From Burkholderiales bacterium (lineage in GTDB: Bacteria; Pseudomonadota; Gammaproteobacteria; Burkholderiales; Burkholderiaceae_C): 61,331 nt of DNA. Of the stretch, positions 46,147 to 61,119 are shown piece after piece; position 1 is the first letter of the stretch; every line of letters starts with the position of its first letter. The DNA is taken from positions 1 through 61,331 of the forward strand of contig RXJV01000038.1 of assembly GCA_003963075.1 (NCBI GenBank), in the 5' to 3' direction. The notes below the pieces were generated by a model that searched no databases, was not told the origin of the DNA, and saw only the letters and a program-made list of their open reading frames with translations. A program made the position numbers and the translations under genes.

Positions 46147-47214
46147 TCAGCGCCGGCGGCGCAGCCAGCCGATCGCCGCCAGGCCGCTGAGCAACAGCGC
46201 ATAGACCTTAGGCTCGGGCACCGCGGCGGCGCTGACATCCCAGCCGATCGCGTCCAGCGCCATCAGGTCGGACGCGGTCGCGTCGTAGGACTGCCCCGCG
46301 CTGACGAAGGGCCGCATCAGCGTCGTCGCCTGGGTGCCGAAATGGCTGGCCTGCCAGCCGTTGCCGTGATAGTCGCCCGTCGAGAAGGGCTGGATCGAGG
46401 TGGCGCCGCCGTCGACCGAGAAGTAGGGGCTGCCGCCCACCGCGACGTTCAGCACGCCAGGGGCCGAGTAGCGGAACAGGTCCAGCGGGGTGTACCAGGG
46501 CGCGTTCTCGAAGCGGCCGACGGTGTTGCCGAGGCCGCACTGTGCTGAGTTGTCGATGCAGAAGTCGATGTCATCGACGCCGGACACGAAGCCAAGTGCG
46601 TGGCCGATCTCATGCTCGGCCACGGTGATGAAGTCGGTCTTGTTGCCCGGCACCTGGCCGTTGACGCGCGAGTAGGCGAAGCTGTTGGCGAAGGCATTCG
46701 CAAAGCTGATGCGGGCATCCGGCGTGCCGGCGTTGTTGACCGTGGTCAGGCCCAGGGCCTTGGCATTGGCCGTCGTCAGCACGAGCTTGGTGTTGTTGAG
46801 CGAGCCGTCGTTGTCGAGCCGGGTCGTCAGGTCTCCCTGGGTGGCCAGGAAGCTCAGCGCCGGGCCCGTCTGCAGATGGCTGACGGCGCTGAAGTCGGTG
46901 GCCGAGCGGGCGTCGGTGGTCAGCCGACTGCGCAGCGTGCTGTAGTCGATCGTCGTCTTGTCGGTGGTGGTCGAGCCCAGCACGTTGGCGCCGAGGTCGC
47001 TGAAGGAGATGTTGACGTAGACCGTGACCTTGTCGGTCAGGCGACCGGACCAGAAATTGGCCGCTGCCTGAAAGCCGGCGTATTGCTGGGCGCTCATCGG
47101 GGTCTTGCCGACATCGGTCAGCACGAAATCGACGGCCTGGGCCTGGGGCGCGGCGGCCACGAGGGCCAGGGCAAGCGCGAGCGCTGCGGAATCACGGGTA
47201 CTGCGGGTGGGCAT
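46147..47214 (-). CDS. PEP-CTERM zinc metalloprotease (NF038122-like)
   Basis: 355 residues. A signal peptide (ALALALALVAAAPQAQA) ends near residue 27. The zinc motif HEIGHALGF is clear, with a distal aspartate-containing loop after it. The C-terminus has the PEP-CTERM sorting tail VPEPKVYALLLSGLAAIGW then RRRR, so the protein is expected to be cut and processed by an exosortase, of which none lies in the window. Convergent with the RlmI-like gene, 25 bp away. Confidence 0.85.
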   Translation of the reverse strand: MPTRSTRDSAALALALALVAAAPQAQAVDFVLTDVGKTPMSAQQYAGFQAAANFWSGRLTDKVTVYVNISFSDLGANVLGSTTTDKTTIDYSTLRSRLTTDARSATDFSAVSHLQTGPALSFLATQGDLTTRLDNDGSLNNTKLVLTTANAKALGLTTVNNAGTPDARISFANAFANSFAYSRVNGQVPGNKTDFITVAEHEIGHALGFVSGVDDIDFCIDNSAQCGLGNTVGRFENAPWYTPLDLFRYSAPGVLNVAVGGSPYFSVDGGATSIQPFSTGDYHGNGWQASHFGTQATTLMRPFVSAGQSYDATASDLMALDAIGWDVSAAAVPEPKVYALLLSGLAAIGWLRRRR

Positions 47215-47296
47215 GTCGGGCCTCGGAACGGCAAAGCGGTGGCGGGATTGTCGGCACCGCCCGTGACGGCTTGCGCCACGCAATTGCAACTGTTCT

Positions 47297-47800
47297 TTAC
47301 CGCCGGGCCGCAGGCAGGCCCACGCGGGTGTCGAACTTGGCCCGCTTGACGCTGAAGAACGCCTTGATGTTGCGCACATTGGCGTCCTGCGTCAGCAGCC
47401 GCTGCGTGAAGGCCTGGTAGGCCGGCATGTCGGCCAGCTGCACCACCAGCACAAAGTCCGGCCCCGGCGATACGCGCCAGCACTGCTGTACGGCAGCCTC
47501 CTGCACCGCGCGGGCCTCGAAGGCGTCCAGGTGCTCGGCACCCTGGCGGTCGAGCGTGATCTCCAGCAGCGCCTGCAGGCCGGCGCCGAGCTTGTCGGGC
47601 GCCAGCAGGGCCACGCGCCGCTCGATGAAGCCGGCGTCCACCAGGCGCTTCACGCGGCGCAGGCAGGTGGCTGGTGACACCGCGCAGCGTGCAGCGAGGT
47701 CCTGGTTGCTCAGAGAGCAATCAGCCTGCAGGGCGTCCAGCAGGCGCAAATCGATGGCGTCCAGCTCCAAATTCAATCCATTCACGCAAGAAAATTTCAC
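47297..47800 (-). CDS. Lrp/AsnC-family regulator
   Basis: The HTH (DAIDLRLLDALQADCSLSNQ and CAVSPATCLRRVKRLVD) and RAM domain (VSPGPDFVLVVQLADMPAYQ) are clear. The start is unsure: GTG 47800 gives 167 residues, GTG 47785 gives 162. It is divergent from glmS (102 bp). An inverted repeat (47794-47819) sits across the GTG 47800 start, suggesting self-repression. Ligand unknown; control of the neighbouring glmS is possible but not shown. Confidence 0.85.
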   Translation of the reverse strand: MKFSCVNGLNLELDAIDLRLLDALQADCSLSNQDLAARCAVSPATCLRRVKRLVDAGFIERRVALLAPDKLGAGLQALLEITLDRQGAEHLDAFEARAVQEAAVQQCWRVSPGPDFVLVVQLADMPAYQAFTQRLLTQDANVRNIKAFFSVKRAKFDTRVGLPAARR

Positions 47801-47819: not shown

Positions 47820-47902
47820 CATCGTTCAAAAGCGGATGAATTTTGCATGCATTTGCCGATTCCTCTTGCCTAGGATGCCGCATCACTCAACGGAGAGTCC
47901 CC

Positions 47903-49762
47903 ATGTGCGGCATCGTCGGCGCGGTCAGTCAGCGCAATATCGTTCCCATCCTGGTCGAAGGCCTGAAGCGGCTGGAGTACCGCGGCTATGACTCCTGCGG
48001 CGTCGCCGTGCATCAGGCTGGCGGCCTGCGCCGGGCGCGCAGCACGTCCCGCGTGGCCGAGCTGCAGGCCCAGGCCGAGCAGGACGGCATCAGCGCAGGC
48101 ACCGGCATCGCCCACACCCGTTGGGCCACGCACGGCGCGCCGGCGGTGCACAACGCCCACCCGCATTTCTCGGCCGGGCCGAGTGCCGGCGAGGCCAGCG
48201 TGGGCCGCATTGCGCTGGTGCACAACGGCATCATCGAGAACCACGACGAACTGCGTGCCGAACTCAAGGCCCGGGGCTATGTGTTCGCCAGCCAGACCGA
48301 CACCGAGGTCATCGCCCATCTGGTCGACCACCTCTACAGCGGCGACCTGCTGGATGCCGTGCAGCAGGCGCTGCCGCGGCTGAAGGGTGCCTACGCGGTG
48401 GCCGTGTTCTGCCGCGATGAGCCCCACCGCGTGGTGGCCGCCCGCGAGGGCTCGCCGCTGGTGCTGGGCGTGGGCGAGGGCGAAAACTTCGTCGCCTCCG
48501 ACGCCATGGCCCTGGCCGGCGTGACCGACCAGATCGTCTACCTCGAAGAAGGCGACGTGGTAGACCTGCAGCTGGGCCGCTACTGGCTCAGCCGCCTGGA
48601 TACGACCACCGGCCGCTACCTGGCCGTGCAGCGCGAGGTCAAGACCGTGCACGCCCACAGCGGCGCCGCCGAGCTCGGCCCCTACCGCCACTACATGCAG
48701 AAGGAAATCTTCGAGCAACCCACCGCCATCGCCAACACGCTCGAAGCCATCACGGGCATCGCGCCGGAACTCTTCGGTGACGGCGCCTATCGCATCTTCA
48801 AGGAGGTCGACAAGGTCCTCATCCTGGCCTGCGGCACCAGCTACTACTCGGGCTCCACGGCCAAGTACTGGCTGGAGAGCATCGCCAAGATCCCCACCAG
48901 CGTGGAGATTGCCAGCGAGTACCGCTACCGCGACAGCGTGCCCGACCCCAAGACCCTAGTCGTCACGATCAGTCAGAGCGGCGAGACGGCCGACACCATC
49001 GCCGCCCTCAAGCACGCCCGCGCGCAGGGCATGAAGCACACGCTGACGGTTTGCAATGTGTCCACCAGCGCGATGGTGCGCGAGTGCGAGCTGGCTTACA
49101 TCACCCGTGCCGGCGCCGAGATCGGCGTGGCCTCCACCAAGGCCTTCACGACCCAGCTCGTCGGCCTGTTCCTGCTGACGCTGGCGCTGGCCCAGACCCG
49201 CGGCCACCTCAGCGACGAGGCCGAGGCCCAGCACCTGAAGGACCTGCGCCACCTGCCGGTGGCCGTACAGGCCGTGCTGGCGCTGGAGCCCCAGGTCATC
49301 GCCTGGAGCGAGGAGTTTGCCCGCAAGGAAAACGCGCTCTTCCTCGGCCGCGGCCTGCACTACCCGATCGCGCTGGAAGGCGCGCTCAAGCTTAAGGAAA
49401 TCAGCTACATCCACGCCGAGGCCTACCCGGCCGGTGAGCTCAAGCACGGCCCGCTGGCCCTCGTCACCGCCGAGATGCCCGTGGTGACCGTGGCACCGAA
49501 CGACGCGCTGCTGGAGAAGCTCAAGAGCAATATGCAGGAAGTCCGCGCCCGCGGCGGCCAGCTCTACGTGTTTGCCGATGGCGACACCGCCATCGAGAGC
49601 GAAGCCGGCCTGCACGTCATCCGCATGCCCGAGCACTACGGCGCGCTGTCGCCCATCCTGCACGTGGTGCCGCTGCAGCTGCTGGCCTACCACACGGCCT
49701 GCGCGCGCGGCACGGACGTCGACAAGCCGCGCAATCTGGCCAAGAGCGTCACTGTGGAGTGA
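47903..49762 (+). CDS. glmS: glutamine-fructose-6-phosphate aminotransferase (isomerising)
   Basis: 619 residues from ATG 47903. The N-terminal nucleophile Cys2 (MCGIVGAVS), the [10 protein letters not shown] glutaminase motif, two SIS domains ([32 protein letters not shown]) and the C-terminal LAKSVTVE tail are present. It makes glucosamine-6-phosphate for peptidoglycan and LPS. It stands alone, divergent from the Lrp gene; no glmS ribozyme features are seen in the short leader. Confidence 0.97.
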
Positions 49763-49791
49763 GCCGCGAAGTGGCTCTGTGTCGGGACGTC

Positions 49792-50346
49792 CTAGTCGCT
49801 TGCCACGAGATCGCGCAGGTTGAATGCTGCGAGGGCGATCAGCGCTAGCCCCAGCGCAATCAGACCGCGGCTTGTCATGACTTGATCGTCGACCAGGTAA
49901 TTGACGCAGAGCTGGAGCATGTTGTCGCCGTAGATCACGCCGGCCGTTAGCATCATCCAGGCCGCATTGAAGAGGAAAAACGCGGCGATCACGGGCTCGA
50001 AGCGAATCCTGCTACTGCTCAGCATGCCGCCCACGGTCATCCAGCTGGCGTATTTGATGGCGGCGACGACCGGGTTCAGCAACGAGAGGTCCAGGGCTGC
50101 TGGAATCATCCACACCGCAAGGACGCAGGAGGTCACCGTTCCGCACAGCAGACCATGTGCATCCACCGCGCTGAGCAGCCGGCCTGCGCATGGGGATGGA
50201 ACGGCCATCCACCCCGCAGCGACGAGGGCCGGGAACTGAACCAGCATGTGAAGGCTCATATGGCCTTCCAGAATCGACTTGAGCGGGGTGGCCGTCACAG
50301 CCAGCATGGTCAACACCGCTGCAAAACGGCTGTGGAGCTGCGTCAA
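49792..50346 (-). CDS. CtaG-like/DUF1404-like multi-pass membrane protein
   Basis: 184 residues with about five TM segments. A His-rich stretch ILEGHMSLHMLVQFPALVAA resembles the HMxxH core of CtaG (caa3-type) copper-assembly proteins; the DUF1404 family looks similar. It overlaps the SCO gene by ATGA and ends the operon. Role in delivering copper to the haem-copper oxidase encoded upstream is inferred from motif and position. Confidence 0.6.
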   Translation of the reverse strand: MTQLHSRFAAVLTMLAVTATPLKSILEGHMSLHMLVQFPALVAAGWMAVPSPCAGRLLSAVDAHGLLCGTVTSCVLAVWMIPAALDLSLLNPVVAAIKYASWMTVGGMLSSSRIRFEPVIAAFFLFNAAWMMLTAGVIYGDNMLQLCVNYLVDDQVMTSRGLIALGLALIALAAFNLRDLVASD

Positions 50347-50990
50347 CGCTGCTCTCCGTCTGCCAGGGTGACTGCAGTTCTCAGGGCGGTCTGCCAGTCC
50401 GCAAAGTCAAGCACCTGCCGGACCTGGCCGTGGCGGTCGACCACATGGATAGCGCCGTTGTGAACATAGCCCCCCAGACCGTCAGGAACAGCGACGACGC
50501 CCAGGCGGCGCATCAGCGCCCGACCCTGTTCCGGGCTGACCGGCGCGGCCACTTTCCAGACCTGTGCATCAGCGCGATGCCGGCCTGCGTAGTTCTTCAG
50601 CCCCAGTGGGTCGTCGTGGCTGGGGTCAATCGAGATTGAAATCAGCCGGATGTTTCCTCTACCGCTTGCCTTGAGCTGCTCCTGAATCTGGAAGTACTCT
50701 GAACCGAGGCTCTGGCAGACCGACGGGCAGCTCGCATAGAAGAAGTCCACCAGATAGATTTGCCCCTCGGGCGGTGAACTCTCAAGCAAGGGGAATTGCC
50801 GCGCGTCCTGATCCCGAAGCTGGATAGCGCTCATCTGGAGCTCGCCATGTTGAGCTGATTGGCGCCTCAGCGCTTCGAAGGTCCAGTATTCGAAGTTTGA
50901 GGTCAGCTTGTAGACAACGGCAAAGAATGCAGCCAGCACGAGTAGGCAGCAAACGAGGGTGCGTATTTGCGCTGACGTGGCAGGTCCCAT
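50343..50990 (-). CDS. SCO1/SenC-family copper chaperone
   Basis: 215 residues. An N-terminal TM (about 12-27), then a thioredoxin fold with the copper motif YASCPSVCQSL (CxxxC) and the distal copper ligand His in VHNGAIHVVD. SCO proteins insert copper into CuA or CuB sites. It follows the haemoglobin gene by 6 bp and overlaps the CtaG-like gene, so it is part of the NO-cluster operon. Confidence 0.85.
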   Translation of the reverse strand: MGPATSAQIRTLVCCLLVLAAFFAVVYKLTSNFEYWTFEALRRQSAQHGELQMSAIQLRDQDARQFPLLESSPPEGQIYLVDFFYASCPSVCQSLGSEYFQIQEQLKASGRGNIRLISISIDPSHDDPLGLKNYAGRHRADAQVWKVAAPVSPEQGRALMRRLGVVAVPDGLGGYVHNGAIHVVDRHGQVRQVLDFADWQTALRTAVTLADGEQR

Positions 50991-50996
50991 GTCGGC

Positions 50997-51440
50997 TCAG
51001 ACGCTGACGTAGTCCACGGCGACACCGTCTTGCATGACGAAGTGCGCGAACTGCTGGAAGAAGCCGTAGAACAGGTTGCGACCAATCCCGGCAGCCGTTG
51101 CCTGCAGCTCCTCGGCCGCGGGTGCTGGCAGCAGGGCCGCGGTGTGCTTGTGCCAGAGCGTGATCCATCGCAGGAAGTGTTCGGGCACAACGTCATGCTG
51201 CTCGGACAGCTCGACATGCTTTTGGTAAACGTTGCCCTTGAAGGTGCGCGTTCCAAGGGCAACAGTGCTCCAGAACTCGGTCATGCGCTCGAGGTGAGGC
51301 CCCCACCCATCGCCAACGGCGCTGGCAAAGACGGGGCCCAGCCGTTCGTCCTGACGCACTTCTGCATAGAAGGAGTCGACGACCTTGCGGAGGTCTTCGC
51401 GCGTTACCCCCGCCATGGCCGGATTTTCTGCGCGCGCCAT
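50997..51440 (-). CDS. group III truncated haemoglobin
   Basis: 147 residues of the 2/2 globin fold (PF01152-type), with FYAEVRQDERLGPVFASAV, HLERMTEFWSTVALG and the proximal-region GNVYQKHVELSEQH characteristic of class III. These bind O2/NO and often occur with NO and respiratory genes. The start ATG 51440 is followed by MAGVTREDL at 51416 as an alternative. It starts only 3 bp after the 36-residue peptide gene. Confidence 0.85.
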   Translation of the reverse strand: MARAENPAMAGVTREDLRKVVDSFYAEVRQDERLGPVFASAVGDGWGPHLERMTEFWSTVALGTRTFKGNVYQKHVELSEQHDVVPEHFLRWITLWHKHTAALLPAPAAEELQATAAGIGRNLFYGFFQQFAHFVMQDGVAVDYVSV

Positions 51441-51443
51441 GTG

Positions 51444-51554
51444 TCAACCCAGCCACGCCAGGGCAGCAACGCTCAACAAGGCCAGGGCGAGCACCACGCC
51501 CACGAGGGCCTCGCCCGGGCCACCGACATCCGTCTCAAGGTTCCACTTGTCCAC
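51444..51554 (-). CDS. 36-residue single-TM peptide, candidate oxidase small subunit
   Basis: Starting at GTG 51554: (M)DKWNLETDVGGPGEALVG then a hydrophobic VVLALALLSVAALAWLG ending at the stop 51444-51446. One TM spans nearly the whole second half. It falls below usual length cut-offs. The stop is 3 bp from the haemoglobin ATG, and the gene follows the cytochrome c gene by 82 bp. In size and topology it resembles CcoM, a tiny cbb3 subunit; this is inference. A TTG at 51569 is an alternative start. No strong ribosome site. Confidence 0.5.
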   Translation of the reverse strand: MDKWNLETDVGGPGEALVGVVLALALLSVAALAWLG

Positions 51555-51636
51555 AGCTCGGCATTCCAAACGGTTTAAATAAGGTATGTGCGATGCATGA
51601 TATTGCGTCTAGGGAGAGCCGGCAAGTGCAAGCGGT

Positions 51637-52242
51637 TCAATCGTGCGGCGGAAGCTCCTTGTCGCCGCCGAACGGGCCCGTCCGGTCTTTGTGTGCCTCA
51701 CGGGCTTGAGCGACCGTGACAGCATCTACGGCAGCTGCCGTGTTGCCCCATTGGGAACGGATATAGGTCAAGACGCCGGCGATCTGCTCATCGGTCAGCT
51801 GTTGGCCAAACGCTGGCATGTTGCCGTTGTAGGTGCTTGCTTTGACGGTGACGGATCCGCTGATGCCGTGCAACAGGATGGCGGACGCTGTGCCAGCCTT
51901 GCCCAGCACCCACTCGCTGCCAGCGAGCGGCGGGAACACGCCGGGAAGGCCCTGGCCGCTCGTCTGGTGACAGGCGACGCACAGGGACGCATAGATGGCC
52001 GCACCATCCACTTTGCCAGCAGCGTTCTTCTTGGTGCCTGACAGCTCCGCTGCCTGGCGCCCATCACCCCAGGATGCCGGGCTCTCGATGTCTGCCTGGC
52101 TGATGTAGACGACGCCAAACGCAAACATCAGCCCGACAACTGAAATCAGCGGCCATGGAATCGGGTTCGTCTTTTCATGCGGGTCCGGGTTCTCGCGCTG
52201 CTGCTGAGGCGAGGCTTGTGGACGCATCTCTTGTTCACTCAC
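51637..52242 (-). CDS. membrane-anchored monohaem cytochrome c
   Basis: 201 residues. A hydrophilic N-terminus precedes one TM (about 31-48, PLISVVGLMFAFGVVYIS), then a class I cytochrome c with CVACH (Cys88, Cys91, His92) and a distal Met in NGNMPAFGQQLTDEQI. It may replace the missing dihaem CcoP as electron donor to the CcoNO pair. It is 15 bp from the ccoO gene and 82 bp from the small peptide gene. Confidence 0.88.
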   Translation of the reverse strand: MSEQEMRPQASPQQQRENPDPHEKTNPIPWPLISVVGLMFAFGVVYISQADIESPASWGDGRQAAELSGTKKNAAGKVDGAAIYASLCVACHQTSGQGLPGVFPPLAGSEWVLGKAGTASAILLHGISGSVTVKASTYNGNMPAFGQQLTDEQIAGVLTYIRSQWGNTAAAVDAVTVAQAREAHKDRTGPFGGDKELPPHD

Positions 52243-52257
52243 GATGGAACTCCTGCT

Positions 52258-52866
52258 TCAACGGGCCACAGCAGACGCGGGCGCGGCGGCCGACTCCAGG
52301 ATCGGGTAGGTGTGGTTCAGCGCCTTCAGGTAGGCCACGAGGTCCAGAGCCTCCTGCTTCGCCACCACAAGTTGTCCGGGCGGCGCATAGCCCGGAGGAA
52401 GCTTCACCTCGATGTCGCCACTCTCGAGCTGGGGCTTGGTCTCGAACAGGAACGGATAGCTGGGCATGATGCTGGCCGACACATAGGCTCGTGGCTGGTA
52501 GAGGTGCCCCAGATGCCACTGGTCGCTCGGCTGGCGGGCGCCGATATTGAACAGGTCGGGCCCCGTTCGCATGGTGCCGAGCAGGTGCGGTGAGTCGTAG
52601 GCATAGTCAGCAGCGACGCTGGCGCGCCCCCACCCCCGCTGCGTGTCGGGCGCGAAGCTCTTCGCTCGCGGCTGCTGGGAGTGGCAGTAGATGCAGCCGT
52701 TCGCAATGTATTGCTGTCGGCCGCGAAGCTCGGCGCTGGTGTAGGGCTTGAGTGATTCGGGTGCCTTGATGTCTCTCACCGTGATGTAGGGAATCACGAC
52801 CAGCGCGCTGGTGGCGATACTGAGCATCGTCATGCCGCCGGCAAGCAGTTTGGTTTCGCTATGCAT
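52258..52866 (-). CDS. ccoO: cbb3-type oxidase subunit II
   Basis: 202 residues with an N-terminal TM (about 9-29) and haem motif CIYCH (Cys58, Cys61, His62). Surrounding stretches GCIYCHSQQPRAKSFAPD, GTMRTGPDLFNIGARQ, WHLGHLYQPRAY and SIMPSYPFLF (distal Met) follow the CcoO pattern closely. It is the electron-transfer subunit to the CcoN core. The gene begins 10 bp after ccoN. Confidence 0.93.
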   Translation of the reverse strand: MHSETKLLAGGMTMLSIATSALVVIPYITVRDIKAPESLKPYTSAELRGRQQYIANGCIYCHSQQPRAKSFAPDTQRGWGRASVAADYAYDSPHLLGTMRTGPDLFNIGARQPSDQWHLGHLYQPRAYVSASIMPSYPFLFETKPQLESGDIEVKLPPGYAPPGQLVVAKQEALDLVAYLKALNHTYPILESAAAPASAVAR

Positions 52867-52876
52867 TGCAGGTCCT

Positions 52877-54451
52877 TCAGAGCGTCTTCAGCAACGTCGG
52901 CTGGTTGCGCCCCACCGAGCGCCCGAGCAACAGCATCGCGAAGTGGACGATGAACACGATGTGGCCGGCTGCCATCAAACCGCCTCCGAGCGTTCTCGCC
53001 TTCAGGTAGGGGAGGGTCAGCGTCACGGAGTCGATGAAGGGCCGGGTCTCATCGAGCATGGCTTCACCCTGCAGCCATCCACCGATCGTCAGCGACACGA
53101 AGTAGATGGTGATCCCGGCCGCCGCGAGCCAGAAGTGCGCAACGATGAGGCCTTGGTAAGGCCACTCCCTCCCGGAGACCCGCGGCACGACGAAGTAGAT
53201 CGCGCCGAAGAAGACCATCGTGACAAAGCCGTACAAGCCCAGGTGGGCGTGGGCCACCGTGAAGTGGGTGAAATGGGTCACCACGTTCACGCTGCGCAGG
53301 GCTTCGAAGCTGCCTTGAATCGAGCTGGCGGTGTACATCAGTCCGCCGAAGCCGATGAACCTTAGAGTGGGTGAGCTTTTCAGGGCCGATAGATGGCCTT
53401 TGAGGGTCTGCTGCTGGTTCACTGTGAACGACAGCACCGGGATGATCATCATCATGCTCTGCACGATGGACAGCGTGATCAGCCAACCCGGGACCGGCCC
53501 ACCGACAAGGTGGTGCCCGCCCACTTGGCCATAGAAGAACGCGAGGCCCCAGAACCCCAGCAGGGAGAGGTTGTAGCTCTGGACCGGGCGACCGATGACC
53601 TTGGGCAAGAAGTAGTAGACGGAAGCCAGCGCGAGGGGTGTGTAGAAGAGACCCAGTACGTTGTGGCCAAACCACCAGTTCGTTGCGGCTTGCTGTACGC
53701 CCTTGTGCAGGTCAGGCAGGTTGCCCACGAGGAAAAGCACGGGGAACCAGAACAGCGCGCATCCCATGTACCAGACCGACACATAAAGGTGGTCAACCCT
53801 GCGGTTCAGCAAGGTGAGCACCAGAGGAATGCCGATCAACGCGCCGCCGATCACGAACAGGATGTCAACTTGCCAAGGTATTTCCAGCCATTCCATGCCG
53901 TCGCTCAGACCGACAGCGATCGCGCCCAAGCCGGCGATCAGCGCAGCGTTCCAAAGCGCTGCACCCAGGAAGGCGAAAGGGGCGCCGACGAGCTCGGTCT
54001 TGAGCAGCCGAGGAATGACGAACAGTGCGATGCCAAGCCCCGCCATGGGGGCCCATCCATAGGCCACGGCATTGAGGTGAATCGTCCGAATCCGTCCAAA
54101 GGTCAACCAAGGCTGTGCCGTGAGCCAGTCGGGCTCATGCAGCTTGATGGAGGCCGTGAGTCCGGCGGCGGATGCGACGAGCAACCACGCGAAGGCGCAG
54201 CAAAGGAAGAAGAACACCAGAGGTGCAGTCGAGGCGTCCGCTCGTGCTCGAAGCACCAGCTCCTCGTTTCGGATCGGTGGCACCGTCCCCGCGGCCGGGT
54301 CCTCGCCGCTGCCGATTTCACCGGGGGCAAAGATGACTTCGGCCGCCTTGCTGTTCTTCGTCAACATCCCGCTGCGCTGTGACCATATGAAGACCAGCAG
54401 CGCGACGACCGACAGGATGAATGCCGACATCAGGATGGCAATCGTGCTCAT
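52877..54451 (-). CDS. cbb3-type (C-family) haem-copper subunit I with CcoS-like N-terminus
   Basis: 524 residues, ATG 54451 with a GGGAGATC ribosome site. The first ~45 residues carry one TM then FIWSQRSGML and a polar stretch, like CcoS. The core starts about 75. Proposed ligands: haem b His125 (RTIHLNAVAYGW), CuB His263 (WWFGHNVLG) and His313/314 (GGHHL), Tyr373 in LMYTASSIQG (aligned with the cross-linked Tyr of cbb3), and His401/His403 (TVAHAHLG). A Gln (379) replaces the Glu seen in TFEGP of cbb3 enzymes. Function as O2 or NO reductase is not settled. Confidence 0.85.
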   Translation of the reverse strand: MSTIAILMSAFILSVVALLVFIWSQRSGMLTKNSKAAEVIFAPGEIGSGEDPAAGTVPPIRNEELVLRARADASTAPLVFFFLCCAFAWLLVASAAGLTASIKLHEPDWLTAQPWLTFGRIRTIHLNAVAYGWAPMAGLGIALFVIPRLLKTELVGAPFAFLGAALWNAALIAGLGAIAVGLSDGMEWLEIPWQVDILFVIGGALIGIPLVLTLLNRRVDHLYVSVWYMGCALFWFPVLFLVGNLPDLHKGVQQAATNWWFGHNVLGLFYTPLALASVYYFLPKVIGRPVQSYNLSLLGFWGLAFFYGQVGGHHLVGGPVPGWLITLSIVQSMMMIIPVLSFTVNQQQTLKGHLSALKSSPTLRFIGFGGLMYTASSIQGSFEALRSVNVVTHFTHFTVAHAHLGLYGFVTMVFFGAIYFVVPRVSGREWPYQGLIVAHFWLAAAGITIYFVSLTIGGWLQGEAMLDETRPFIDSVTLTLPYLKARTLGGGLMAAGHIVFIVHFAMLLLGRSVGRNQPTLLKTL

Positions 54452-54678
54452 GGGTGATCTCCCGAATGGGCTCGCGTGAGCGAAGTCCGAGGTTTGAGGT
54501 GGCCCGGTACGCCCAGGGTGCAGAGTGGTTTGGTGGCGCCACGCGGAACAAGCGCTGTGGTGCTGGCGAATCGCATCCGCGCCTGGGCGGGTTGAGCGAT
54601 GGCCGAAATGCCGATCAGGTTCCCCAGTGCAATCCGGGGCAGGAAGTCGCTATCGCTGCGAAGGCTCATGGCTCGGCC
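54452..54678. other. 227-bp gap between nnrS and ccoN, no gene supported
   Basis: A 73-codon open frame (54448-54669, MSLRSDSDFL...) spans this gap and overlaps the ccoN start by ATGA, but its codon choice and lack of any TM or motif make it doubtful. No NsrR or FNR-type palindrome is seen in the gap. Transcript from the nnrS promoter probably reads through. Confidence 0.5.
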
Positions 54679-55884
54679 TCAACCGTCTTGTCCGTCGACG
54701 CGGGGCATGCAAAGCATCGGCGTGTAAGCCACCAAATAGACGCAGCAGGCCAGTGCAAAGCAGGCGCCTGCCAGACCAATGCCGCAGGCGTACAGGCTCG
54801 GCACCAGCAGCGGAACGCCGACACGCAGAACCGCGGCGATTGCGATCAGGGCGTAGGCCAGTGTCTCCATGGGGCCCGCGATGAGGGGGCGGCCGGTGTG
54901 GCCACGTGCGGTGCGGGTCATCATGGCCAGAACGAGGCCGCCGGTGGCGCCGACGGTGAACGCGTGCAGCGCCGGTGATGCACTTCCTCCAACAGCTTGC
55001 TGCACCGCCAGCAAAGCGAAGCCGACCGGCAGCCACGCATAGGCCAGGTGCAGCGACCAGAGGATGGGTCTGCCCAGCGTGACGGCGGGGCGCCAGCTGT
55101 GGAGGCGCCATGCATGCAGCACGGCCGCCACTGCAAGCAGGGTGGCGGTCAGGAATGGGTTGAGCTGAAGAAGCCAAGCTGTCAAGGAGCTGAGGGTGGC
55201 CACCATGACTACCCGCTCGCGGGATGCCGAGACGGTGTTCTGCAGCCCTGGTGTCACGTTCCGTGTGAAGAAGGGAATGACCCGGCCCGCGATGACGGTC
55301 TCGAGCACGACGAAAAGCGCAACGGCTGCATGGAGCGGCCGGGCCGGGTCCAAGGGCAGCGCGTGCCCGGCGCCCAGATGGAACCAATGATTGGCGGCAC
55401 CGAGGAGCCCCAGCACTGCCGCGACACCGAGGTTTCGGAAGTTCCGTGCCCGCACCACAAGATCTGCAAACAGTGCGGCTACGAGCGGCAGGAACGCGAC
55501 ATCGAGCGTGAAAAACACGTCGTAAGGCGCCACGATGGCTGCAATGCGTGCCGCCAGCCATAGCAAGGCGAAGAAGGCGAGTTGACCTCCTCTTGGGGTC
55601 GGCAGACCCGTCCATGTCTTGCCCGCGGTGAACAGGAAACCCACGACGACCGCGGCGACCATGCCAAACAGCATTTCATGCGCATGCCAGGAGACCGGCT
55701 CCAGCCCTGACGCTGGCGCCAGCCGGCCCGTGAAGACAGCCCACCAGAGCGGCATGAGCAGGGCTCCTGCAAGTGCAGCGAGGAGGTAGAACGGTCGGAA
55801 GCCCAGCCTCAACAGCGGAACCCCGTGCGGTTCGAGGCTTGGTGCTTGACCCAGCAGCGGAAGCGACTTCATCGGAGACGCCAT
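54679..55884 (-). CDS. nnrS: NnrS family haem/copper membrane protein
   Basis: About 400 residues with roughly 12 TM segments. The family stretches LRLGFRPFYLLAALAGALLM, WHAHEMLFGMVAAVVVGFL and FTAGKTWTGLP are present. NnrS proteins protect against NO and occur with NsrR. The ATG at 55914 lies inside the NsrR-type box and probably is upstream of the transcript start, so ATG 55884 (MASPMKSL) or 55872 (MKSLPLL) is likelier. First gene of the NO-responsive operon. Confidence 0.9.
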   Translation of the reverse strand: MASPMKSLPLLGQAPSLEPHGVPLLRLGFRPFYLLAALAGALLMPLWWAVFTGRLAPASGLEPVSWHAHEMLFGMVAAVVVGFLFTAGKTWTGLPTPRGGQLAFFALLWLAARIAAIVAPYDVFFTLDVAFLPLVAALFADLVVRARNFRNLGVAAVLGLLGAANHWFHLGAGHALPLDPARPLHAAVALFVVLETVIAGRVIPFFTRNVTPGLQNTVSASRERVVMVATLSSLTAWLLQLNPFLTATLLAVAAVLHAWRLHSWRPAVTLGRPILWSLHLAYAWLPVGFALLAVQQAVGGSASPALHAFTVGATGGLVLAMMTRTARGHTGRPLIAGPMETLAYALIAIAAVLRVGVPLLVPSLYACGIGLAGACFALACCVYLVAYTPMLCMPRVDGQDG

Positions 55885-55894
55885 GGACGGCTTA

Positions 55895-55917
55895 AACATG
55901 TAAACGTCGCGCATGTT
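55895..55917. promoter_or_regulatory. NsrR-type operator
   Basis: AACATG (55895-55900), 11-bp spacer, CATGTT (55912-55917): a 23-bp inverted repeat in NsrR-box spacing, overlapping the -10 of the nnrS promoter. Confidence 0.75.
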
Positions 55918-55942
55918 ATAGCAAGGGTGTTCTTCTTGGCAA
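55915..55942 (-). promoter_or_regulatory. sigma70-like promoter for nnrS
   Basis: Reading leftward, TTGCCA (55937-55942) and TATAAC (55915-55920) are 16 bp apart. The operator covers the -10/+1 region, as expected for a repressor. Confidence 0.6.
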
Positions 55943-55978
55943 CTGGAAGTGCAACCGCGCTAAAGTAGATTCATTGAT

Positions 55979-56500
55979 ATGTCATTCAGCGACACCGCGA
56001 TGCGCCTGACCGTCTACACCGACTACACCCTTCGAGTGATGATGTACCTGGCGGTCAAGCACCGCGACGGGTCGTTGGCCACCATCGACGGAATCGCGCA
56101 AGCCTATGCAATTTCGCGCAACCATTTGATGAAGATCGTCAACGAACTGGCTCAGAACGGGTTCATCGAGACCGTCCGGGGCCGTACCGGAGGCGCGCGC
56201 CTGGCTCGGCCGCCCGGTGAGATTTCGATCGGCAGTTTGGTTCGGATGGCGGAGGAAGACTTCACCCTTGTGGCGTGCCACGACACGGTGAACCCGCATC
56301 ACTGCGCGATCTTCGAAGCCTGCAACCTGAAGCGTCGCCTGGCTCGCGCCCTGGACGCCTTCATGGCGGAACTCGATGGCATGACTTTGGAAGAGGCGAT
56401 CTCAGCGCCAACGGTTGCCGCCTCATTGCTTGGGTTCGAGGTCCGACCCGTCAAGATGCCGGTGTCAAGACGGAAGCGAGCGCCGTCCGAGTCGATGTGA
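55979..56500 (+). CDS. nsrR: Rrf2-family NO-sensing repressor (NsrR)
   Basis: 173 residues from ATG 55979; ATG 56000 (MRLTVYTDYTLRV, 166 residues) matches the usual NsrR start better. The winged helix ISRNHLMKIVNELAQNGFIE and the Fe-S cysteines Cys100, Cys109, Cys115 (C-x8-C-x5-C) are present. NsrR carries an Fe-S cluster that NO destroys, releasing repression. Divergent from nnrS with the operator between them. Confidence 0.9.
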   Translation: MSFSDTAMRLTVYTDYTLRVMMYLAVKHRDGSLATIDGIAQAYAISRNHLMKIVNELAQNGFIETVRGRTGGARLARPPGEISIGSLVRMAEEDFTLVACHDTVNPHHCAIFEACNLKRRLARALDAFMAELDGMTLEEAISAPTVAASLLGFEVRPVKMPVSRRKRAPSESM

Positions 56501-57341: not shown

Positions 57342-58370
57342 ATGAACCCTCGCTCCCGATTCGCGTCCCGCCTGGCTCGCGTTGCTTCTGTCACCGTTCT
57401 TTTTGGAGGTCTTGCCATGACTACCACTGCCCAATCGCAAGATGTTGGCCCCGCAGCCAAACCAACCCCCGCCGATCTGGTGGATGCGCTGAAGACCATG
57501 GCCGGCAACCCACCCAATGCACGCGCCAACTTCGCCAAGGGCGTATGCGTCAAGGGCGCCTACACACCGTCAGCGTTTGCGCCTCTTGTGACCAAGTCGC
57601 AGAGCTTCACCCGCCCATCGGAAGTGCTGGGCCGCTTCGCCGTCAGCAGCGGCAATCCGCATGTGGCCGACACGAACAAGGGCGCGCTGAAGGGCTTCTC
57701 TTTCCGTGTCGGTCCGGCAGGCCATCAATCGGACATCGTGACGGAAAACGCGCCGGTGCACTTCGCCCGTGACTTGACCCAGATGCTGGCGTCGCTGAAA
57801 GCGCGCACTGCTGGCCCGGATGGCAAGGTGGACCCCGAAAAGTTCAAGGCTTTCGGCGCTGCCAACCCAGAGGCGCTCAACCAAGCCCACCTTGTCGGCG
57901 CCAAGCCGCTGCCGGGCAGTTGGGCCGGCACCATCTACTGGGGCGTCCATGCCTTCCCGGCCACCGACGCCAAGGGCCAGACGCGCCATATCAAGTTCAA
58001 GGTCGTGCCGCACATCGCCGAAGTGACGCTGAGCGAGGACGAGGCCAAGGCCAGGCCGGCCGATTTTTTGAAGGGCGACCTCGAGCAGCGGCTGGCAGGT
58101 GGTCCCGTGCGGTTTGATGTGCTGGCCATCCTGGGTCAGCCCGACGATCAAGTGCTGGACACCACCCAACGCTGGGTCAATGAAGACCACCGCGAGACCA
58201 TTCGACTGGGCACGATCAGCATCACCAGCTTGGCGCCCGAGGACAGCTGTGACGCCGGCATCTTCAACCCGGCCGCGCTGGCGGATGGCATCGCGGCACC
58301 GCCGGACGAAATCTTTGCGGCACGCGCACCGGCCTATGCCATCTCACTGGGCAGGCGCCGCGGCGGCTGA
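57342..58370 (+). CDS. periplasmic catalase-family (mini-catalase/SrpA-like) protein
   Basis: 342 residues with a signal peptide (LARVASVTVLFGGLAMTTTA). The small catalase-like fold is recognisable by ANFAKGVCVKGAYTPSAF, LGRFAVSSGNPHVADTNKG, and the C-terminal AYAISLGRR with a Tyr. In this family the first motif usually reads HAKG, with a distal catalytic His; here it is FAKG, so peroxidase activity is doubtful or altered. A hairpin (58377-58401) follows. Confidence 0.8.
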   Translation: MNPRSRFASRLARVASVTVLFGGLAMTTTAQSQDVGPAAKPTPADLVDALKTMAGNPPNARANFAKGVCVKGAYTPSAFAPLVTKSQSFTRPSEVLGRFAVSSGNPHVADTNKGALKGFSFRVGPAGHQSDIVTENAPVHFARDLTQMLASLKARTAGPDGKVDPEKFKAFGAANPEALNQAHLVGAKPLPGSWAGTIYWGVHAFPATDAKGQTRHIKFKVVPHIAEVTLSEDEAKARPADFLKGDLEQRLAGGPVRFDVLAILGQPDDQVLDTTQRWVNEDHRETIRLGTISITSLAPEDSCDAGIFNPAALADGIAAPPDEIFAARAPAYAISLGRRRGG

Positions 58371-60504: not shown

Positions 60505-61020
60505 TCAAGCCCGCGGTGGCCGCCGCCGCAGGCAGGCCACCAGCACCAGCCCCGCCATCAGCAGCGCATAACTGCTGGGCTCGGGGACGACGCTGACATT
60601 GCGGATGCTCAGCAGGCTGGGGCCTTCGTCGTCCATCCCGTTGCGGACGCCGAACTGCAGCGTGCCGCTGAACGGGTTGCGGAAGGCATAGGTCTGCCAG
60701 CCGGACGAGCCGAAATTGCCCACCGTGCCCACCGATGCCAGCAGCGTGATCTCGCGGCCGTTCAGCAGCAGGTAGGCGAAGTCATCGTGGGGCAGGTAGT
60801 CGTTGGCGTCGAACTTCCACTCGAACGACCTGACCTCGCCGAGCGAGCCCTCCAGCCAGGCATTGCCGCCCAGCACCGCCAGGTCGCGCGTCGCGTCGAC
60901 CCAGCCGCCCTGCGACGTGTATGCCTTCAGGTCGGCCAGGTCCACCGAGGCTGCCTGGGCGGGGCTTGCAGCCACAGCGCAGATCGCCAGCAAAGGCCCG
61001 CAGGCCAGTTTCAACTTCAT
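60505..61020 (-). CDS. PEP-CTERM exported protein
   Basis: 171 residues. ATG 61020 has an AAGGAG ribosome site (the ATG 61035 inside it is an alternative). A signal peptide (ACGPLLAICAVAASPAQA) ends near residue 25, and the tail VVPEPSSYALLMAGLVLVAC then RRRP is the PEP-CTERM sorting signal. The body is beta-rich with no recognised domain. Exported and processed by an exosortase elsewhere. Confidence 0.85.
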   Translation of the reverse strand: MKLKLACGPLLAICAVAASPAQAASVDLADLKAYTSQGGWVDATRDLAVLGGNAWLEGSLGEVRSFEWKFDANDYLPHDDFAYLLLNGREITLLASVGTVGNFGSSGWQTYAFRNPFSGTLQFGVRNGMDDEGPSLLSIRNVSVVPEPSSYALLMAGLVLVACLRRRPPRA

Positions 61021-61119
61021 CTTGAACTCCTTCATGAAACACCCGGCCGGCGCCGGGGCGGGCCGAGGGCCTCGCCCCGCGGCGGCGGGTGTGGGGTGCA
61101 GGGTGTGAACGGTTGCGGC

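Follow-up and report, generated by a model that had tools for sequence, protein, structure and literature searches.

Nitric oxide (NO) binds haem-copper centres, yet bacteria exposed to it need a functioning oxidase, and it is of interest which enzyme may serve this purpose. The question is raised by positions 49792–56500 of contig RXJV01000038.1 of a Burkholderiales bacterium (assembly GCA_003963075.1), where the genes of a haem-copper enzyme adjoin those of an NsrR-like regulator, NnrS and a truncated haemoglobin; the window is the whole stretch of 61,331 nucleotides. The enzyme is a compact member of the C family (cbb3 class) of haem-copper enzymes, on which sequence, tree and fold agree. 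We hold, with moderate confidence, that it is an NO-tolerant oxygen reductase, induced by NO rather than by low oxygen, which would keep electrons flowing under NO, with reduction of NO as a possible side activity. An earlier note on this DNA had left the choice between an oxidase sustaining respiration in NO and a C-family NO reductase. The oxidase is favoured here by the catalytic tyrosine, the nearest solved structure and the linkage to nsrR described below, the response to NO being predicted from the regulatory context.

The solved chains closest to subunit I are those of CcoN (223 bits), with NorB at 40 bits. Its identity to ordinary cbb3 CcoN is about 31%; it matches Pfam COX1 (286 bits) and gives 261.9 bits with the ccoN equivalog TIGR00780, below the curated cut-off of 583. 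In a tree of 40 rows the family to which it belongs (19 rows), ordinary CcoN (9) and NorB (5) separate with support of 100/99, 100/99 and 100/100, respectively. The trees carry long-branch warnings, and two sequences (L008 and L114) are placed uncertainly. Thus the description of a non-canonical CcoN-like subunit given in the earlier note holds: the phylogenetic check that it proposed was run, and subunit I stands outside ordinary CcoN, in a clade of its own apart from both CcoN and NorB. A Foldseek search ranked CcoN at the top (E ~1e-18) and cNOR lower (1e-10). The model used (pLDDT 73.6, with the active-site stretches 309–320 and 388–401 below 50) served for ranking folds and not for geometry.

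The active site was compared in 80 named loci. These were selected from at least 568 candidates as the ones most similar to the window, and they are related to one another (two genomes gave two loci each, L033/L036 and L061/L110; L110 was left out of the alignments). The haem and CuB histidines (H125, H263, H313, H314, H401 and H403) are invariant in 80/80, and so are Tyr307, which corresponds to the catalytic Tyr251 of CcoN (numbering via the alignment with 3mk7), and Ser296, Tyr279 and Tyr373 (Ser240, Tyr223 and Tyr317 of CcoN). The site of the FeB glutamate of cNOR, four residues after the helix VI histidine, is occupied by Gly267 in all 80, while five of five NorB rows have the glutamate and no tyrosine. 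We take the roles of the haem and CuB histidines, the catalytic tyrosine and the FeB glutamate to be the usual ones. A cNOR or cNOR-like enzyme is ruled out by these residues and by the tree. Together with the copper-chaperone genes, the residues point to CuB at the active site and to reduction of O2.

Residues 1–50 of subunit I are, as judged from profile matches, CcoS (FixS) fused to its N-terminus. The FixS profile matches 74 of 78 N-termini of the family at E <= 0.1 (best 7.2e-6; L078 and L087 were left out of this set in addition to L110). The match of the window protein itself is weak (E 0.019, 15.1 bits, cut-off 23.1). A sister lineage (G355) has a separate FixS gene above the Pfam cut-off directly upstream of ccoN; in another (G397) no separate FixS gene was seen in the frame calls. 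FixS had been considered absent and is found here inside subunit I. CcoP and FixGHI are indeed missing from the locus, as claimed, but not from the genome: an ordinary cco operon on another contig (C111) comprises a P-ATPase, a CcoS-like protein, ccoN, ccoO, dihaem CcoP and a CcoG-like frame.

CcoO is present in 79/80 loci, and the third subunit is a cytochrome c of another type. Its haem domain most resembles those of copper nitrite reductases (118 bits) and cytochrome c-552 (103 bits), with CcoP at 64 bits or less. FixP_N was found in none of 16 members, and half-CcoP identity was dropped on these two results. No dihaem CcoP with FixP_N occurs at the locus, the third subunit having one CxxCH; therefore only membership in the C family is claimed, not a canonical four-subunit ccoNOQP enzyme.

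Nine open reading frames were examined in the interval. From right to left they are the Rrf2 regulator on the plus strand, nnrS, subunit I, ccoO, cytochrome c (cytC), a 41-residue frame with a transmembrane (TM) helix, truncated haemoglobin, SCO and orf1:

55979..56500, plus strand: Rrf2-family regulator, read as NsrR (Pfam Rrf2, 112.8 bits; three cysteines, 100, 109 and 115)
55895..55917, minus strand: candidate NsrR box 1, palindrome AACATG-N11-CATGTT, overlapping the nnrS promoter
54679..55914, minus strand: nnrS (Pfam NnrS, 353 bits)
52877..54451, minus strand: ccoSN, C-family haem-copper subunit I of 524 residues with predicted N-terminal CcoS (about residues 1–50)
52258..52866, minus strand: ccoO (FixO), membrane-anchored monohaem cytochrome c, CIYCH (Pfam FixO, 129.8 bits)
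51637..52242, minus strand: third subunit, membrane-anchored one-helix monohaem cytochrome c, CVACH (Pfam Cytochrom_C, 50 bits)
51582..51598, minus strand: candidate NsrR box 2, which differs from ATGYATNNNNNATRCAT at one position and overlaps a promoter
51444..51569, minus strand: peptide of 41 residues with one TM helix by hydropathy, uncertain gene
50997..51440, minus strand: group III truncated haemoglobin (match to solved 2ig3_A, E 1.2e-10)
50343..50990, minus strand: SCO copper chaperone, CPSVC (Pfam SCO1/SenC, 47.6 bits)
49792..50346, minus strand: orf1, helical membrane protein of the DUF1404/Caa3_CtaG kind, which may take part in copper loading (family-level Pfam matches, AlphaFold2 model)

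The positions and Pfam identities agree with the gene set of the earlier note, except that nsrR is divergent and does not belong to the leftward set. The tiny TM peptide exists as a frame with one helix; it has no Pfam family match and its status as a gene is uncertain. The haemoglobin, for which the Pfam search of the window gave no match, is assigned by its similarity to group III 2ig3_A (44.6 bits; the runner-up cyanoglobins reach 19 bits). An Rfam scan of the window gave no matches. Elsewhere in the window, a catalase-family protein (57342–58370, Pfam 72.7 bits) adjoins nsrR on the far side, and PEP-CTERM sorting motifs occur in two proteins (46147–47379 and 60505–61035).

The locus probably consists of two NsrR-type units, and in both a palindromic box overlaps the promoter. 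The box 1 palindrome matches once in the window against 0.05 expected, for a pattern chosen after viewing the sequence. It overlaps the only promoter-like site in 55800–56060, which ends at 55913; box 2 overlaps the only such site in 49500–54800 (51625–51597; 0.8 expected). The two promoters, TTGCCA-18-TAACAT and TTGCCG-17-TATCAT, are overlapped by the palindromic boxes in the same register. Since box 1 and the -10 element overlap the first ATG of nnrS, its true start is probably 55884 or later. The single set behind one NsrR-type box that was originally described is thus replaced by two promoter-box pairs. A second one-mismatch ATGYATNNNNNATRCAT site at 47836–47852, between an Lrp-type regulator gene and glmS, may be due to chance.

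The link to NO-related genes extends to the relatives. As controls, 40 loci with canonical ccoN matches of the relatives were used (one of them, L205, covers only 11.7 kb). A gene for NsrR (>=40% identity) lies in the flanks of 32/80 loci of the family and of 0/40 controls. The same holds for nnrS (16/80), truncated haemoglobin (19), DUF2249 (12) and fdxA (12), each absent from all 40 controls; any of nsrR, nnrS, DUF2249 and haemoglobin occurs in 35/80 vs 0/40. The position and strand of nsrR vary among loci, which would be expected of a link that was gained or retained repeatedly. FdxA-type ferredoxin is encoded between nsrR/nnrS and ccoN, or in the operon, at L045, L049, L052, L054, L058, L066, L071 and L095; in L066 and L071 its gene separates ccoO from cytC.

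In the 350 bp upstream, an FNR box with at most one mismatch precedes ordinary ccoN in 32/40 cases and this family in 4/79; FNR/ANR control of the family was rejected on these counts. The NsrR-type box at the same stringency is found in 6/79 upstream regions (~0.2 in shuffles) vs 0/40 controls, and the longer box pattern with up to six mismatches in 16/79 against 0.5. The box of a Rhizobacter locus (L041) is perfect, and in Rhizobacter sp. Root1238 (L042) a box immediately precedes ccoSN. On the nsrR side, a scan made without shuffles gave a box with at most one mismatch in 10/32 loci, and in L034 the same ATTCAT..ATGAAT palindrome stands before nnrS and before the haemoglobin gene.

The copper genes also distinguish the family: SCO is present in 77/80 and orf1 in 76/80 loci, both in 0/40 beside ordinary ccoN, which has CcoI in 38/40 flanks. 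Four plasmid relatives without SCO or orf1 match (L180–L183) have a P-type ATPase instead. This exchange implies that both sets may load CuB, and loading of CuB by SCO and orf1 in turn suggests a copper enzyme. The protein earlier named CtaG-like deserves this name only in part: DUF1404 matches 18/47 and Caa3_CtaG 4/47 family members at E <= 0.1, which are weak matches, and orf1 of the window itself matched no profile. Its AlphaFold2 model (pLDDT 92.9) is all helical and found no match in the PDB at E <= 0.001, which is no evidence of a new fold.

Close orthologues (60–85%) were found in 5 of 60 sampled relatives, one with two copies. Among 230 genomes of the order they occur in nine besides that of the window, with two more at ~510 bits; among 299 genomes of the phylum there is one besides it, and the score then falls from 900 to 345 bits. 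Named genomes with the operon include Roseateles, Rhizobacter, Cupriavidus, Massilia, Duganella, Castellaniella, Alcaligenes, Azoarcus and Steroidobacter. The survey of gene order suggested earlier shows that the core ccoSN-ccoO-cytC-sco-orf1 is colinear on one strand in 74/80 loci, more than by chance. The six exceptions are two loci with sco-orf1 reversed, two without sco and orf1, one without orf1 and one on a contig ending inside ccoN. The full order of the window including nsrR, nnrS and haemoglobin recurs in 2/80 (L034 and L037). Roseateles cellulosilyticus P8 has two operon copies (L033 and L036), of which the L033 copy lacks an sco or orf1 match.

From these data the following mechanism can be proposed. 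NsrR would repress two adjacent units, nnrS-ccoSN-ccoO-cytC and trHb-sco-orf1 (trHb, truncated haemoglobin), and NO would disable NsrR so that both are expressed. SCO and orf1 would load CuB. Electrons would pass from cytochrome c to the anchored monohaem cytochrome c and CcoO, and further to haem b and the haem b3-CuB centre of the CcoS-CcoN fusion, where O2, the predicted main substrate, would be reduced. The presumably NO-tolerant enzyme would thereby sustain electron transport as long as the constitutive oxidases are inhibited by NO, and the truncated haemoglobin and NnrS may limit binding of NO or damage by it.

Several observations do not fit this mechanism easily. The RirA and NsrR models of NCBIfam give the regulator nearly equal scores (123.2 and 121.9 bits, both under the cut-offs), and it is named NsrR because of the neighbouring genes. 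Box 1 has three mismatches to the pattern used for the relatives. With up to three mismatches the ATGYATNNNNNATRCAT pattern is not enriched over the window (19 vs 19.6 expected), and a plain box shared across the window was rejected for lack of excess. Of the loci, 48/80 have no nsrR in the flanks examined, and among these a box occurs in 1/48 at one mismatch or less and in 5/48 at two or less (1.9 expected); since they are mostly without a box, control by NO may be limited to some lineages or act in trans. In subunit I, Gly299 replaces His243 of CcoN in 80/80 and Gln379 replaces Glu323 in 71/80 (Glu in 9), so proton uptake or pumping may differ; Glu383, one turn beyond Gln379, is kept in 79/80. 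Finally, the genome of this bacterium (4.65 Mb in 173 contigs, 95.65% complete) contains no cNorB or qNorB at E <= 1e-20, in line with the earlier statement that NorBC is absent, and no nirK, nirS, Hmp or Hcp match, with a single NnrS, the window copy. This leaves room for an NO-removing role there, and the lack of another NO remover would also fit an NO reductase.

Of the alternatives, the one that survives best is nevertheless unlikely. It regards the enzyme as a general poison-tolerant or auxiliary cytochrome c oxidase, for which the NO link would be one recruitment among several, sulfite oxidation or other roles being served elsewhere. The loci without nsrR agree with it, and so do the surroundings of the relatives in Paraburkholderia and Azoarcus KH32C described below. 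Relatives on plasmid records are those of C. metallidurans CH34 (71.6%), Azoarcus KH32C (64.8%), three Paraburkholderia (54–55%), Indioceanicola (52%) and two Paracoccus (49%). In a wider tree (NorB, L008 and L114 left out), all ten relatives that were added group with the 19 rows of the family in one clade (support 96/99, with a long-branch warning). The plasmid relatives at 49–55% share the clade, the fused CcoS, CcoO and cytochrome c, but have the P-type ATPase in place of SCO/orf1. On two Paraburkholderia plasmids (L180 and L181) the ~54% relative is followed by genes for the P-type ATPase, for a molybdoprotein of sulfite-oxidase type and for a cytochrome c, and a TDT/SLAC1 transporter gene lies nearby; this cluster is a possible sulfite-respiring electron outlet. 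In Azoarcus KH32C, msrB-msrA come after the copy. One may speculate that the clade in its entirety supports respiration under oxidase poisons or with these poisons as substrates. In the window, however, the regulator, NnrS, haemoglobin and both boxes all point to NO.

Two other loci belong to different parts of the C family. In G059 (L147:6580–9684) a protein of 1034 residues contains COX1, FixO and two cytochrome c domains in a single chain and is followed by a 75-residue frame with a FixP_N match; judged by these domains, it is a fused cbb3-like complex of another branch. In G169 (L153:7529–10966), another divergent branch, subunit I is followed by CcoO fused to two cytochrome c domains.

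Slightly less probable still is a mainly respiratory or detoxifying C-family NO reductase with CuB in place of FeB, which would clear NO once NsrR is relieved. The cbb3 oxidase of P. stutzeri reduces NO to N2O according to an excerpt of a review (PMC8780969), which, as far as this excerpt goes, speaks for this rival and makes such a side activity of the present enzyme likely. The NsrR linkage, the composition of the genome described above and the similarity of the third-subunit haem domain to that of copper nitrite reductases are also in its favour, as is a nirS genome with the operon (G023) which has no NO reductase (NOR) match. Against it stand the catalytic tyrosine, the absent FeB glutamate and the distribution of NOR and nir genes. 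Among genomes of the order, NOR is found in 9/15 with the operon and in 19/40 without it (the latter a hand-picked part of those seen), and nirS/nirK in 7/15 and 21/40, respectively; nir without NOR occurs in 1/7 vs 4/21. Of 50 genomes with named loci, picked from 72 before the results were obtained and partly overlapping the 15 + 40 set, 31 have NOR (17/25 nsrR-linked, 14/25 unlinked). The counts show no complementarity; therefore in these samples the operon is no substitute for NOR and is not tied to denitrification, and the idea of a stand-in for NOR in nitrite-reducing genomes was abandoned. Hence the NO reductase of the earlier note, although cbb3 enzymes can reduce NO, gains nothing from residues or co-occurrence. 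A related version, an NsrR-controlled CuB (not FeB) enzyme of the C family which mainly reduces NO to N2O with conservation of energy, or turns over O2 and NO at once, we consider more doubtful again. An ordinary cbb3 paralogue lying beside NO genes by chance is very improbable: all core C-family residues are kept, but the separate clade (100/99), the discrete score gap among the 299 genomes and the differences in third subunit, fusion, copper genes and regulation speak against it.

The proposed NO-tolerant oxygen reductase can be compared with known systems. With the cbb3 oxidase ccoNOQP and ccoGHIS (solved structure 3mk7) it shares the fold of subunit I, the active-site residues and CcoO. 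It differs by its ~31% identity, the apparent fusion of CcoS, a third subunit with a single haem and no profile relationship to CcoP, SCO and orf1 replacing CcoI in the cluster and NsrR-type in place of FNR control. CcoS is needed for the maturation of cbb3 oxidases. With cNOR (NorBC, solved as 4xyd and 3o0r) it has in common the haem-copper superfamily and NO-related regulation, which an excerpt of Rodionov 2005 (PMC1274295) describes for cNOR in some bacteria; the low NorB score, the missing FeB glutamate and the tyrosine set it apart. According to excerpts of the respective papers, the isoform ccoN3Q3 of P. aeruginosa is made with nitrite (PMC5697931) and ccoN4 is driven by cyanide (PMC10790758), the latter a precedent for a poison-induced cbb3 isoform. 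To that extent these orphan subunits resemble the present case as cbb3 variants made in response to a respiratory poison; they are extra CcoN proteins joining ordinary CcoO/CcoP, whereas here the genes of a complete enzyme are clustered with those for its copper supply.

The norSY-senC-orf1 cluster of ammonia oxidisers, to which this one may be likened, also combines a haem-copper enzyme, not known to be of the C family, with SenC/SCO and a membrane orf1. A description of the present operon was not found in the literature searched, most subscription papers being outside the search, and older work may exist.

The family is thus a widespread, separately evolved cbb3-class complex, which differs from the textbook enzyme in its regulator linkage, copper genes and third subunit. 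CcoS, elsewhere a separate maturation factor, appears here to be built into the catalytic subunit. The relatives are automatically annotated as 'cbb3-type cytochrome c oxidase subunit I', and their genomes may therefore be misread for microaerobic respiration. The system bears on whether reduction of NO is a cellular function of C-family enzymes. It would also make it possible to test directly how a haem-copper centre becomes tolerant to NO, with the loss of His243, the mostly Gln residue at the position of Glu323 and the conserved glutamate one turn further on as candidate changes relative to CcoN.

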